This document shows, piece by piece, positions 40,089 through 47,698 of a stretch of 47,698 nucleotides of DNA (its first letter is position 1; each line of letters starts with the position of its first letter). Source of the stretch: a virus. The stretch lies in the IMG/VR virus record IMGVR_UViG_3300050821_008264, positions 1-47,698 of that record, one strand, 5' to 3'. A program made the translations under genes and the position numbers. The notes beneath the pieces are model-generated. The model saw only the letters and a list, made by a program, of their open reading frames with translations, was not told where the DNA came from and did no database searches.

Positions 40089-41354
40089 TTAGGTCTCCGC
40101 CACTGGCCGATATTGCTTGGCTACGTCGAAGCCGAAGGTCCACGCTACGGCGTCATCGGCGCGCTTAATGGCTGGCGGCACGCGCAAGAAATAAATTCGG
40201 CCTGTCGATGGATCCGTTACGCGGACCGCGCGCAGAACGCGCTCCGGATCGCCCGGCAAGTCGATTGAGAACAGGTCGCCCATTTCGTGCGTGTGGATCT
40301 GCTTGGCGCCGGCTTCGCCAAGGAAGCGTTCCATACCAATACGCTCCATCATTACGCGGCGCACTTCAGTGTTTTGCTCGGCGAGAATTTCCTTGGCGGA
40401 TATTGTTTCGGGTTGTTCGATTACGCGCTGGTCGACGCGCACGCCGTGCCACGCCCAGATGCCCCAGCCATCTCCATAGCCGATCGCCTGGCCGGCTGGA
40501 TTGTGCAGGCGGCTTTCCGCGTCCACCTTGCAAACGGTATAGCGTTCAGATGCCAGCGCGATGCCGTCATATGGAAACCACCAATGCAGATGCCGAGATT
40601 GATGCAGCCACAAGTCGAGGAGCTCTGAATCTTTCTCCGCGTACTTGACGCCGATTTCTTCGCAGAAACGGTAGAAGACTTCCCATGCGCACCAGTGATG
40701 GCCACCCAAAATGTTGTTGAGCTGGCTCCCGAGCTGGCTCTCGAGCTGGCTCCTGAGCTGGCTCCTGAGCTGGCTCCAGAGCTGGCTCCTGAGCTGGCTC
40801 CAGAGCTGGCTCCTGAGCTGGCTCCCGAGCTGGCTCTCGAGCTGGCTCCCGAGCTGGCTCCTGAGCTGGCTCTCGAGCTGGCTCCAGAGCTGGCTCCTGA
40901 GCTGGCTCCTGAGCTGGCTCCAGAGCTGGCTCTCGAGCTGGCTCCCGAGCTGGCTCTCGAGCTGGCTCCAGAGCTGGCTCTCGAGCTGGCTCCTGAGCTG
41001 GCTCCTGAGCTGGCTCTCGAGCTGGCTCCAGAGCTGGCTCTCGAGCTGGCTCCCGAGCTGGCTCCTGAGCTGGCTCCAGAGCTGGCTCCTGAGCTGGCTC
41101 CCGAGCTGGCTCCCGAGCTTTGTTGTGGAAAAATTTTTCAAAACCGCCCAGGCAAGAATGCACATCATCGGCGAACCAAAGAAAAGTACGACCGGCTTTG
41201 GCTTGCCGATGCGTGCGTAGAATTCGCCGATGATGGCCTCACACTCTTTGCGGTTTAGGGGCGCCGTCGAGTAGCCGATCGAGAGCCATTCCGACCGCAA
41301 ATCGATAAGGCGCTTTTCCTGCTCCTCGGTCAGTTCGGTGACCTTCTTCGGCAT
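40089..41354 (-). CDS. DUF6745-like protein with 33 tetrapeptide repeats
   Basis: A 421-residue protein. The N-terminal 80 residues (NRKECEAIIGEFYARIGKPKP, FGSPMM) and the C-terminal 200 (SRLHNPAGQAIGYGDGW, IWAWHGVRVDQRVIEQPE, NTEVRRVMMERIGMERFL, FLRVPP, AVAWTFGF) match my memory of DUF6745, a widespread family of unknown function. Between them residues 81-212 are 33 copies of xSQL with x = Arg (11), Glu (8), Trp (7) or Gly (7). The 4-residue period suggests a beta-solenoid or other regular fold. It follows the GEATGHxHR/QREY gene by 9 bases. Confidence 0.7.
   Translation of the reverse strand: MPKKVTELTEEQEKRLIDLRSEWLSIGYSTAPLNRKECEAIIGEFYARIGKPKPVVLFFGSPMMCILAWAVLKNFSTTKLGSQLGSQLRSQLWSQLRSQLGSQLESQLWSQLESQLRSQLRSQLESQLWSQLESQLGSQLESQLWSQLRSQLRSQLWSQLESQLRSQLGSQLESQLGSQLRSQLWSQLRSQLWSQLRSQLRSQLESQLGSQLNNILGGHHWCAWEVFYRFCEEIGVKYAEKDSELLDLWLHQSRHLHWWFPYDGIALASERYTVCKVDAESRLHNPAGQAIGYGDGWGIWAWHGVRVDQRVIEQPETISAKEILAEQNTEVRRVMMERIGMERFLGEAGAKQIHTHEMGDLFSIDLPGDPERVLRAVRVTDPSTGRIYFLRVPPAIKRADDAVAWTFGFDVAKQYRPVAET
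40719..41114. repeat. 33 x 12-bp tandem repeat inside the DUF6745-like gene
   Basis: Each 12-bp unit on the plus strand is GAGCTGGCTC plus a variable dinucleotide that is only CT, CA, CC or TC. In the coding strand this gives SQL plus a codon AGG, TGG, GGG or GAG. The constant part has GAGC/GCTC arms, so both strands stay open in several frames. The unit has exactly 12 bases throughout, with no frame-breaking change. Confidence 0.95.
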
Positions 41355-45204: not shown

Positions 45205-45408
45205 TCACCGTTGGACGAAATTGGACGCCATTAGACGAATTTGTTCCGGAACCCGCTTGCCCATCCTCCGCACCATGTGGTGTGCTCCCACGGCCATGCA
45301 GTCCCGCGCCACGTCCTGTATCCGCTGCCGACGCAACGTCGCCACCGCACGCACCGTCATGTCCAGCTCGCTGTCCACCCGGATCCATAGCTTTTGGTCC
45401 AACTTCAT
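45205..45408 (-). CDS. Ribbon-helix-helix-like small DNA-binding protein
   Basis: A 67-residue protein: KLWIRVDSELDMTVRAVATLRRQRIQDVARDC has the strand-helix-helix pattern of Arc/MetJ regulators. The start overlaps the stop of the excisionase-like gene by one base. The three short TTGGACGAAA-like repeats near its end (45210-45240) are within its coding region. Likely an early regulator. Confidence 0.5.
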   Translation of the reverse strand: MKLDQKLWIRVDSELDMTVRAVATLRRQRIQDVARDCMAVGAHHMVRRMGKRVPEQIRLMASNFVQR

Positions 45409-45641
45409 CAGCTCGCCTTCCTCATCGCCGCAAAATTGCTCGCCTTCCTCATCGCCGCAAAATTGCTCTGCACACTGTGCTTCCGTACCACCGCGTTCAA
45501 GTCCGTCTCCCGCACCAGCACGATCCCCCGCCGCGGATTGTCCGGCAGCACAAACCCCATCTCCACCAGCCACCGCCGCAGCGTCTTCCGATCCACCCCC
45601 ACCATCGCCGCCGCCGCCGCCAGCGAATAATGCTTCTCCAT
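45408..45641 (-). CDS. Excisionase / MerR-like helix-turn-helix protein
   Basis: A 77-residue protein: AAAAMVGVDRKTLRRWLVEMG is a MerR/Xis type helix-turn-helix, followed by a wing (RRGIVLVRETDL). The C-terminus repeats NFAAMRKAS twice because of a 27-bp tandem duplication. It is coupled to the repressor gene by TGATG. It could be the excisionase, an anti-repressor or a Cro-like regulator. Confidence 0.65.
   Translation of the reverse strand: MEKHYSLAAAAAMVGVDRKTLRRWLVEMGFVLPDNPRRGIVLVRETDLNAVVRKHSVQSNFAAMRKASNFAAMRKAS
45411..45464. repeat. 27-bp tandem duplication in the HTH gene
   Basis: Bases 45411-45437 and 45438-45464 are identical (GCTCGCCTTCCTCATCGCCG and 7 more bases). The unit is 9 codons, so frame is kept. 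Likely a recent slippage event. Confidence 0.9.
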
Positions 45642-45856
45642 CACGCCGCCACCGCCGGGTAATACCCGTGCCGATTCAGAAACGCTACAATCCGAGCCTC
45701 TGTAGTGGGATTCGGCTTCACTTTTTCCTGCTCGATCTTCCACAACCCAGACGGGCTCATCTTCAGCGCCTTGGCCATCTGCGTCAGCGACAGCTTCCTC
45801 TCTGCCCGGCACCGGAGAATCATTTTGGCCAGCTCTTCCTGTGGTGTGCTGTGCAT
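45641..45856 (-). CDS. XRE-family repressor-like protein
   Basis: A 71-residue protein from ATG 45856 (MHSTPQEE). AERKLSLTQMAKALKMSPSGLWKIEQ is a lambda-type helix-turn-helix; the rest is a short helical end, with no protease or dimer domain, so it resembles Cro or a minimal repressor. Divergent to the plus-strand RHH gene across 67 bases. A perfect TTGACA with a 17-base spacer to TAGTGT puts the start of transcription at or next to the ATG, suggesting a leaderless message. Confidence 0.7.
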   Translation of the reverse strand: MHSTPQEELAKMILRCRAERKLSLTQMAKALKMSPSGLWKIEQEKVKPNPTTEARIVAFLNRHGYYPAVAA

Positions 45857-45931
45857 ACGGGGCACACTACGCCTGCAAAGAATACGTGTCAAGTCTTTTT
45901 TTGACTTTTTTTACTGGTGTACTATGCACTC
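45842..45931. promoter_or_regulatory. Divergent switch region with paired operator-like repeats
   Basis: TGGTGTGCTGTGCATAC (45842-45858) and TGGTGTACTATGCACTC (45915-45931) match at 13 of 17 positions and each covers one of the two start codons. Between them, minus-strand TTGACA (45892-45887), 17 bases and TAGTGT (45869-45864) form a repressor promoter. GTGTGC (45844-45849) and GCACAC (45862-45867) form an inverted repeat. Likely the lysogeny/lysis switch. Confidence 0.5.
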
Positions 45932-46181
45932 TGTGGAAGATAAAAAAGTACCTCTCAGCCTCCGCGTCAGCCCGCAGCTCAAGGCCGAACTCCACCAGTT
46001 CGCCAAACGCGAAAAACGCCCCATCGGTAACCTCGCCGAACTCCTCCTCGAATGGGCTTTTGAACGCCTCACTGAAGCTGGCAGCACCATGAACTTGCTT
46101 GCCGCCTCCCCTGAAGACCTCGCCACTCCCCGCGGGCGCATTCGCAAAGAGCTCGCAGACGTGCTTTCAAAAAAAAAGTAG
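45924..46181 (+). CDS. Ribbon-helix-helix protein with frameshift heptamer
   Basis: An 85-residue zero-frame product starting MHSVEDKKVP. LSLRVSPQLKAELHQFAKRE plus a following helix (NLAELLLEWAFERL) is a ribbon-helix-helix DNA-binding pattern. It ends SKKK-stop at a run of nine A. Bases 46172-46178 read A AAA AAG in the zero frame, the classic bacterial -1 slippery site, and TAG follows directly. Slippage would add 46 residues. It opens the plus-strand integrase operon and faces the XRE repressor. Confidence 0.7.
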   Translation: MHSVEDKKVPLSLRVSPQLKAELHQFAKREKRPIGNLAELLLEWAFERLTEAGSTMNLLAASPEDLATPRGRIRKELADVLSKKK

Positions 46182-46318
46182 ATGCCCCACCGGGAGAGCT
46201 TCGTGAAACGCTGCACATCGCACTCGACGTTATTTTCGACCGTGCACCCTCCACCGTCGTCGCCACGGTCGTTGAGTTTTTGAGCGAAAAGGCCGTTCGT
46301 TACAGCGGGGACGACTGA
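46178..46318 (+). other. Start-less -1 frame extension of the RHH protein
   Basis: After the slippery site, the -1 frame stays open for 46 codons: VDAPPGELRETLHIALDV, a second helical stretch with FLSEKAV and the end RYSGDD. It has no start codon of its own before a late TTG. Its composition is protein-like with helices, unlike the zero frame after the stop. Either a programmed -1 frameshift makes a 131-residue form, or a one-base change in the A run has split one gene. Confidence 0.6.
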
Positions 46319-46323
46319 AACGT

Positions 46324-46431
46324 ATGTGGTGGCAATTTGCTATCGGTTATGTGGTTGGCCGCATCGTCTATAGCGTCCTACGTCTGCTCGTTGAAAACTA
46401 CATCGTGGATTTTTCGCGCGCCCGGCGATGA
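46324..46431 (+). CDS. 35-residue membrane peptide coupled to integrase
   Basis: Encodes MWWQFAIGYVVGRIVYSVLR and a short charged end. One membrane or amphipathic segment. Its stop overlaps the integrase start as ATGA, so the integrase is probably translated by coupling to it. Not recognised. Confidence 0.55.
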   Translation: MWWQFAIGYVVGRIVYSVLRLLVENYIVDFSRARR

Positions 46432-47465
46432 TCACCCTCTACAAACGAGGGCGCGTCTTCTGGGCACAGTCCAACTTCCACGGCGTCCGCAAACAATGGT
46501 CCCTGCAAACGCGCGACCGCTCCGTCGCCGTGGAACTCCTCCGCCAGGCTCAGTTGGATGAACTCTCCGGAAAGGCTTACAAGCAGAAATCGTGGCAGGA
46601 CTTCAAAGAAGAATTTCTATCGTGGATCGAACCGCAAGTCGCTCCCCACACCTACAAGGAATACGCCCGCGTCCTCAAACTGTTTTCCAATTTTCTAGCG
46701 AATCTTGGTATCGCTCAAGTGGGCAACTGCGTACCAGAGACGATCACCGCGTTTACGCACGAACGTTCGCGCAGCCAGCACAGAATAAACCGACGAGCGA
46801 TGACGACTGGAGGCATTAAGTTTGAGTTGCGTATCCTCCACCGCGTTTTCGCGCATGCGCTGGAGCATGGGTACATCGCAAGGAACCCGGTCACGGCCAA
46901 AAATCTCGGCAGCACTTCCGGCAAGACGTTGCCATTCTCCCTCGACGAGATACGTACGATGCTCGAATGTCCGTACCTCAAAGTCAAACCTTACCTCAAG
47001 GCAATCATCCTGCTCTTTCTCCACACTGGCCTGCGCATCAGCGACGTGATCCATCTGCAACGCTCCTCGATCGCCAACGGAATCCTACACCTCAAAACCA
47101 AAAAGCGCGGCACCATCGTCCGACTCCCGCTCCATCCCGACGTCCTGGCGGCCATTAAAGAATTAAAAATGACAAAATCCCCCTACGTGTTCACCACCGC
47201 CGCCGGCCGGCCCATCGTCTCGCTCGACAAGCATCTCCGCCGCCTCTGGAAAGCTTGCGGGATCTCCGGCGGCCACGCGCACCGCTTCCGCGATACCTTC
47301 GCCGTCAATCTCCTCGAGCACGGCGCAACCCTCTACGACGTCGCCAAGCTTCTCGGCATCTCCCACCAAACCGCCGAACGCCACTACACCCCTTACGTGA
47401 AAGAACTCCAGGAACGCGGCGCCCGCCTGATCCATTCCCTAGACTACAAAGTCAAACATGCTTGA
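46428..47465 (+). CDS. int: Tyrosine integrase
   Basis: A 345-residue protein: N-terminal arm-binding-like region, a SAM-like core-binding domain (about 55-155) and a catalytic domain with Arg203 (GLRISDV), Lys in TKKRG (about 226), HAHRFRDT (H285, R288) and Tyr320 (ERHY). The usual second His (LGH) is Ile (LLGIS). It joins attP with attB in the host tRNA-Thr gene. It lies 137 bases before the att repeat and is transcribed toward it. Its last codons overlap an 18-bp palindrome. Confidence 0.9.
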   Translation: MITLYKRGRVFWAQSNFHGVRKQWSLQTRDRSVAVELLRQAQLDELSGKAYKQKSWQDFKEEFLSWIEPQVAPHTYKEYARVLKLFSNFLANLGIAQVGNCVPETITAFTHERSRSQHRINRRAMTTGGIKFELRILHRVFAHALEHGYIARNPVTAKNLGSTSGKTLPFSLDEIRTMLECPYLKVKPYLKAIILLFLHTGLRISDVIHLQRSSIANGILHLKTKKRGTIVRLPLHPDVLAAIKELKMTKSPYVFTTAAGRPIVSLDKHLRRLWKACGISGGHAHRFRDTFAVNLLEHGATLYDVAKLLGISHQTAERHYTPYVKELQERGARLIHSLDYKVKHA

Positions 47466-47555
47466 CATGTGTAGCGGGATTGTCACACAGGATGGGCAAG
47501 AGTGCCCCCGAACGCCCGAAATTCCCCACCGGCGGATGTCAAACATATTTGACAT
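47451..47555. repeat. Two copies of an 18-bp palindromic site between int and att
   Basis: GTCAAACATGCTTGACAT (47451-47468) and GTCAAACATATTTGACAT (47538-47555) differ at two central positions and are 87 bases apart. Arms GTCAA/TTGAC are inverted repeats. The first covers the integrase stop codon. They are placed like arm-type integrase sites or excisionase/repressor sites. Confidence 0.75.
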
Positions 47556-47601: not shown

Positions 47602-47698
47602 TGGAGCCGAGGGCGAGAGTTGAACTCGCGACCTGCCGATTACGAAGAGGCCGCTCTGATTGGAAGGAATGGATTTATTGCGGGAGTGTAGCGGAGTT
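47602..47698 (-). repeat. att: Right copy of the 97-bp terminal repeat (att / tRNA-Thr part)
   Basis: Identical to bases 1-97, including about 40 bases beyond the tRNA-like part. It lies 137 bases downstream of the integrase stop. Exact identity up to both ends of the window favours a circular contig with overlapping ends; a prophage with attL and attR trimmed to the repeat would look the same. Confidence 0.8.

Follow-up and report, generated by a model that had tools for sequence, protein, structure and literature searches.

Bacterial transcription slips efficiently on runs of nine A or T, as summarized in a review (PMC5009743), and tssM1 of Citrobacter rodentium is reported to give about 20% of the full-length form across a run of 11 A (PMC4256274). 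For the ribosome, A_AA.A_AA.G has been placed among the most shift-prone heptamers in E. coli when stimulators are present, and it passes 0.10% without them (PMC4066793). In the portions of the literature on frameshifting, phage repressors, lysogeny, CopG and Acidobacteria that were consulted, no RHH regulator is listed as a frameshift product, and the case that comes closest is the cro gene of phage A2, for which -1 frameshifting during decoding in E. coli has been reported (PMC5009743). A survey of frame transitions in prokaryotes expects BLASTp-validated singleton frameshifts to be sequencing errors (PMC3711429).

Here we analyse a regulator gene of a soil phage in which an RHH domain and a C-terminal tail lie in different reading frames, whereas in its strong tailed relatives the tail and the DNA-binding domain share one continuous frame; the layout of the surrounding module is common to related phages. 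The gene belongs to the IMG/VR record IMGVR_UViG_3300050821_008264, a whole virus record of 47,698 bases, which was analysed at full length and is referred to as the window.

The regulator gene and its module

The 0-frame ORF of the regulator (45924-46181, plus strand) starts with the ATG at 45924 and encodes an RHH (Arc/CopG-like) protein of 85 aa; alignment with the phage contig L216, described below, indicates that it may start at the GTG at 45933 instead. Its 3' end reads TCA AAA AAA AAG TAG (46167-46181) and holds a run of nine adenines, A9 (46169-46177, +), and the heptamer A AAA AAG in the 0 frame (46172-46178, +), with the TAG directly after it. In the -1 frame, 46 codons and a TGA (46178-46318, +) extend from the GTA at 46178 to the stop at 46316-46318 and code for the tail residues VDAPPGELRETLHIALDVIFDRAPSTVVATVVEFLSEKAVRYSGDD. 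The in-frame heptamer before the stop and the start-less -1 frame that ends 5 bases before the next gene, both pointed out in the preliminary description, were thus found in the sequence as described. No ATG, GTG or TTG lies near the beginning of the tail, so that a start codon of its own was rejected, and a 33-aa ORF at TAGATG was discarded, being judged by eye not to be protein-like. The next ATG is that at 46324, five bases past the TGA of the tail. Since the 0 and the -1 frame are both open from 46115 to 46181 (+), the frame switches somewhere within these 67 nt.

RHH proteins are DNA-binding dimers. A profile search assigns the regulator to them by its match to phrog_3431 (E 6.7e-6); Pfam RHH_5 gave 0.013 for the RHH ORF alone and 0.0017 in the read-through protein, both below the cut-off. 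Relatives of the RHH part are 50-60% identical to it (50-59% for five short RHH proteins from genomes), and because the closest of them are short, tailless proteins of 72-85 aa, the 85-aa product would be of natural length for a short RHH protein. At one locus (L118, G034:C2), four short RHH genes are arranged in tandem, head to tail.

The regulator gene is divergent from a Cro/CI-like HTH regulator (45641-45892, minus strand; Pfam HTH_3, 1.3e-6), which is 54% identical over 78 aa to its counterpart in L216 and 44% over 70 aa to that in a second contig, L162. On the same strand lies an excisionase-like HTH protein (45408-45812, -; phrog_66, 1.6e-4; 39% over 66 aa to L216), the true start of which is probably internal; a perfect 27-bp tandem duplication at the 3' end of its gene (45411-45468) repeats NFAAMRKAS. 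Downstream of the tail, a 35-aa hydrophobic ORF (46324-46431, +) that matches no family in Pfam or PHROGs overlaps the start of a tyrosine integrase (46428-47465, +; Pfam 2.1e-17; phrog_1 1.2e-40; 60% over 340 aa to L216), and part of a tRNA 3' half (47613-47645, -) is presumed to be the attachment core. The earlier reading of the gene as an RHH regulator in a lysogeny module is thus borne out. As in L162 and L216, the regulator diverges from a CI-like HTH gene and precedes the integrase, a position that suggests control of this module.

A GTCAAACATnnTTGACAT-like palindrome is present in two copies, one over the end of the integrase gene (47451-47468) and one near the tRNA piece (47538-47555), and TGTCAA was noticed by eye in the HTH/RHH intergenic region of the window and also in L162 and L216; these elements are possible operator, promoter or integrase arm sites. 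Further away, the window encodes a protein (40089-41354, -) with about 33 tandem 12-bp units, read as SQLx tetrapeptides, ahead of a conserved C-terminal region. This protein is shared with 7 other viral contigs (8 loci), among which the repeat number differs.

Relatives of the tail and of the module

With a profile of 12 tails that excludes the window, the -1 segment scored 42.9 bits (E=1.7e-12) among 1331 window segments, and the next best segment reached E=1.4. The tail is therefore a genuine coding domain as judged by its likeness to these proteins, and the preliminary description was right to call the -1 frame protein-like. The window gene has the C-terminal tail of the RHH-tail family by this profile and departs from the family in its interrupted frame.

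The read-through protein of 131 aa was searched against 399 genomes of the class Terriglobia (Acidobacteriota; the class of genome G029) and had matches in 23, some of them in RHH proteins that align in a single frame from the RHH domain to the end. With a second tail profile (A4), which includes the window sequence, 15 of the 399 genomes were matched: 11 with E of about 1e-23 or better, counted as strong, and four weakly. All the strong matches have a single open frame; 10 are RHH-tail proteins, and in the eleventh the tail follows an HTH domain of the Cro/CI type (L154 / L190, 5997-6506; the genome is from another Acidobacteriota order). One of the weak matches is a decayed tail piece of 20 residues (L157, G238) with no RHH beside it in the translated stretch, and the other three were treated as chance. 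Scanning the family of G026 matched 3 of 398 genomes, the only strong one being already known, and a scan in the phylum matched one of 297 genomes, likewise already known. Together with the RHH-tail protein of L162, all 12 strong tailed relatives (10 RHH and 1 HTH chromosomal, 1 RHH of L162) join their DNA-binding domain to the tail continuously, and no second split-frame copy turned up in the genomes and viral contigs searched.

The tail found no match in Pfam at E<=1 and none of significance in PHROGs (best 0.14), and neither the tail profile nor the full-length profile matched PDB sequences significantly. Structure prediction of the L162 protein from its single sequence gave a poor model (mean pLDDT 60.7) with two helices in the tail region and no RHH strand. 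Its presence behind RHH as well as HTH domains makes a role in assembly or partner binding more likely for the tail than one in DNA recognition. The analysis thus identifies a C-terminal domain without significant match in Pfam, PHROGs or the PDB that is found on regulators of both the RHH and the HTH type in Acidobacteriota and their phages.

Two viral contigs carry modules of the same layout. In L162 (IMGVR_UViG_3300036903_000029), a CI-like HTH gene (-) and an RHH-tail gene (+) face away from each other with an integrase gene downstream, and the module has a second RHH gene as well. Its tail is the nearest to that of the window (51% over 37 aa). Unlike the window gene, L162 and the RHH-tail regulators of one Acidobacteriota order have a continuous frame and no A tract at the joint; their linker is about 15-18 residues shorter, and their RHH domain is from another subfamily. 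L216 (IMGVR_UViG_3300007265_000001) resembles the window in its HTH (-), RHH (+), integrase (+) and excisionase-like genes, with 39-60% identity per part, and has the closest module by integrase (60% over 340) and HTH (54% over 78). Its RHH domain is 52% identical to that of the window over 56 residues, but its C-terminus, read on in the same frame, is unrelated and not matched by the tail profile, and A or T runs in the stretch of the locus that was examined stay below 7. A third contig, L217, encodes a short tailless RHH. The window regulator thus combines an RHH of the short, tailless type with a tail of the L162 type and, given that L216, the nearest by integrase, ends in a different, continuous C-terminus, comparison of these sequences indicates that the C-terminus of the regulator is mosaic and varies between phages. 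This mosaicism holds even if the window gene is simply broken.

Direct searches with the 131-aa read-through protein yielded nothing in viral contigs, phage records and genome contigs. Such empty scans, made with exact peptide patterns, prove little, because that for the integrase in viral contigs came back empty as well, although L216 has a relative at 60%. The regulator was absent from the 7 records with relatives of the SQL-repeat protein and was not carried by the 18 of 39 loci with terminase relatives that were searched; one weak match among the latter (L050) was set aside as antisense to a long ORF.

Acidobacteriota genomes encode relatives of the terminase at about 50%. The 33-base tRNA part occurs in 9 of 199 genomes of the class, all within the order of G029 (41 members in that sample); within the sample searched, the identical sequence is confined to this order, to which 10 of the 11 strong tail carriers also belong. 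Since the tRNA 3' end at the end of the contig thus matches the order of the tail carriers, we presume the host to belong to that order of Acidobacteriota.

Site and cause of the frame break

The slippery motif alone is not unusual in the window, as AAAAAAG occurs 10 times on both strands against 6.6 expected from shuffles, and A9 twice against 0.57. Within 45 ORFs listed by hand (40,983 nt, about 41 kb), one of four AAAAAAG is in the phase A AAA AAG, namely the heptamer of the regulator. The window has only two 9-base A/T runs, one of them inside the frame-change stretch; such runs are a usual place for indels. Codon-position G+C is 0.67, 0.40 and 0.66 in the RHH part and similar over 46115-46177 (0.67, 0.43, 0.57), and changes to 0.41, 0.63 and 0.72 in 0-frame positions after 46178, which favours a frame change at the 3' end of 46115-46181, near A9. 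A joint upstream of A9 is possible, because the -1 residues there add 3 bits to the score of the full-length profile (36.6 vs 33.6) and codon log-odds over 46115-46177, where the +1 frame scores best, are not decisive. The 15-18 linker residues surrounding the site are missing from the relatives.

On balance we lean towards a break caused by a change in the length of A9 or at a nearby recombination joint, be it real or an assembly error, in a two-domain regulator of the lysogeny module. The gene consists of an N-terminal RHH DNA-binding domain, a variable linker and a helical C-terminal domain of about 45 residues, the last presumably serving regulator assembly. In the window the linker ends in A9 and the two domains lie in different frames, probably through either a slipped-strand mutation or an error of assembly, so that the main product of the given sequence would be the 85-aa RHH protein alone, with some full-length protein perhaps still made by slippage on A9. 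An accidental origin is favoured by the continuous tail in 12 of 12 strong relatives, the lack of a second split copy and of downstream structure, the 9-base run within the frame-change stretch, the expectation that singleton frameshifts are errors (PMC3711429) and the same HTH (-), RHH-tail (+), integrase (+) order in L162. Several observations count against it. Heptamer phase, -1 direction and adjoining stop all suit a programmed site, though by our own estimate they would coincide by chance, given a run, in roughly 1 in 6 cases; the tail is intact over 46 codons; 85 aa is close to the natural length of tailless RHH proteins; and none of the 12 other window genes that can be compared with related phages (G001, G008) has a frame break, on account of which the general sequence quality of the record looks good.

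The nearness of the RHH part to tailless RHHs and of the tail to L162, the different C-terminus of L216 and the decayed tail piece of G238 would also fit a recombination that set a short RHH gene with a natural stop before an L162-like tail, the latter being an untranslated relic. We regard this as improbable, as the 46 tail codons are conserved and free of stops and their codon-position G+C is normal. With a homopolymer in the linker and both domains intact, the tail could also be turned on and off in the phage population if the A tract changed reversibly, which, with one sequence only, appears very improbable.

Comparison with known slippage systems

The preliminary description had proposed a regulated switch between an 85- and a 131-residue protein. 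The continuous frames of the relatives do not support this. A AAA AAG is not conserved among them; the protein sequence of the -1 frame is, so that one of the two refuting outcomes set beforehand, a -1 frame lacking conservation, did not arise. The plain alternative offered at the same time, with the gene split or A9 in error, fits at least as well. In its broader form, programmed recoding would mean slippage, either by RNA polymerase on A9 or in the -1 direction by the ribosome on A AAA AAG, with a set ratio of RHH to RHH-tail protein tuning the lysogeny module. The window offers a heptamer of the X XXY YYZ type, the sole in-frame A AAA AAG of the 45 ORFs, inside the frame-change stretch and followed by the stop; A9 is of the length (about 9 or more A or T) associated with transcriptional slippage; the tail is conserved and intact; and short RHH proteins stand alone elsewhere. 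The split tssM1 gene, which works by such slippage (PMC5009743, PMC4256274), and the cro gene of phage A2 (PMC5009743) are the precedents. Patterns for tRNA-Lys in the presumed host order detected the UUU type in 12 of 14 genomes and the CUU type in none of the 14, counts that depend on patterns which may miss divergent D arms and that do not speak against ribosomal slippage.

Against this stand the single sequence and the relatives, none of which keeps the site or the split, but none of which shares the linker of the window either. No hairpin lies directly downstream (z +0.71 for 82 nt and +0.67 for 46 nt vs shuffles, a test that covers local, unknotted folding), and on reading 46150-46170 we saw no four-base piece of GGAGG that could act as a Shine-Dalgarno-like stimulator. 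Programmed recoding therefore seems doubtful to us, and the more specific proposal, in which one gene of a temperate Acidobacteriota phage yields both a tailless and a tailed RHH through slippage at A9 / A AAA AAG and their ratio sets the lysis-lysogeny balance, is unlikely. If slippage were used, it would be an unusual way of tuning a lysogeny regulator. With a break of accidental origin, which we prefer, some tailed protein would still likely be made, by analogy with the efficient slippage on runs of 9 A or T and with the roughly 20% of tssM1 over 11 A.

With the -1 ribosomal frameshifting of the IS3 family and of dnaX, the window has the A AAA AAG heptamer in common; the high-efficiency cases there possess a stimulatory structure or an internal Shine-Dalgarno, neither of which was found in the window. 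Slippage has been demonstrated in C. rodentium tssM1 and Thermus thermophilus dnaX, as well as in Yersinia tssM3, whereas for the window it is a possibility. The likeness to tssM1 (A11) and T. thermophilus dnaX is in the arrangement, a homopolymer in the gene or near a premature stop and two length variants per gene.
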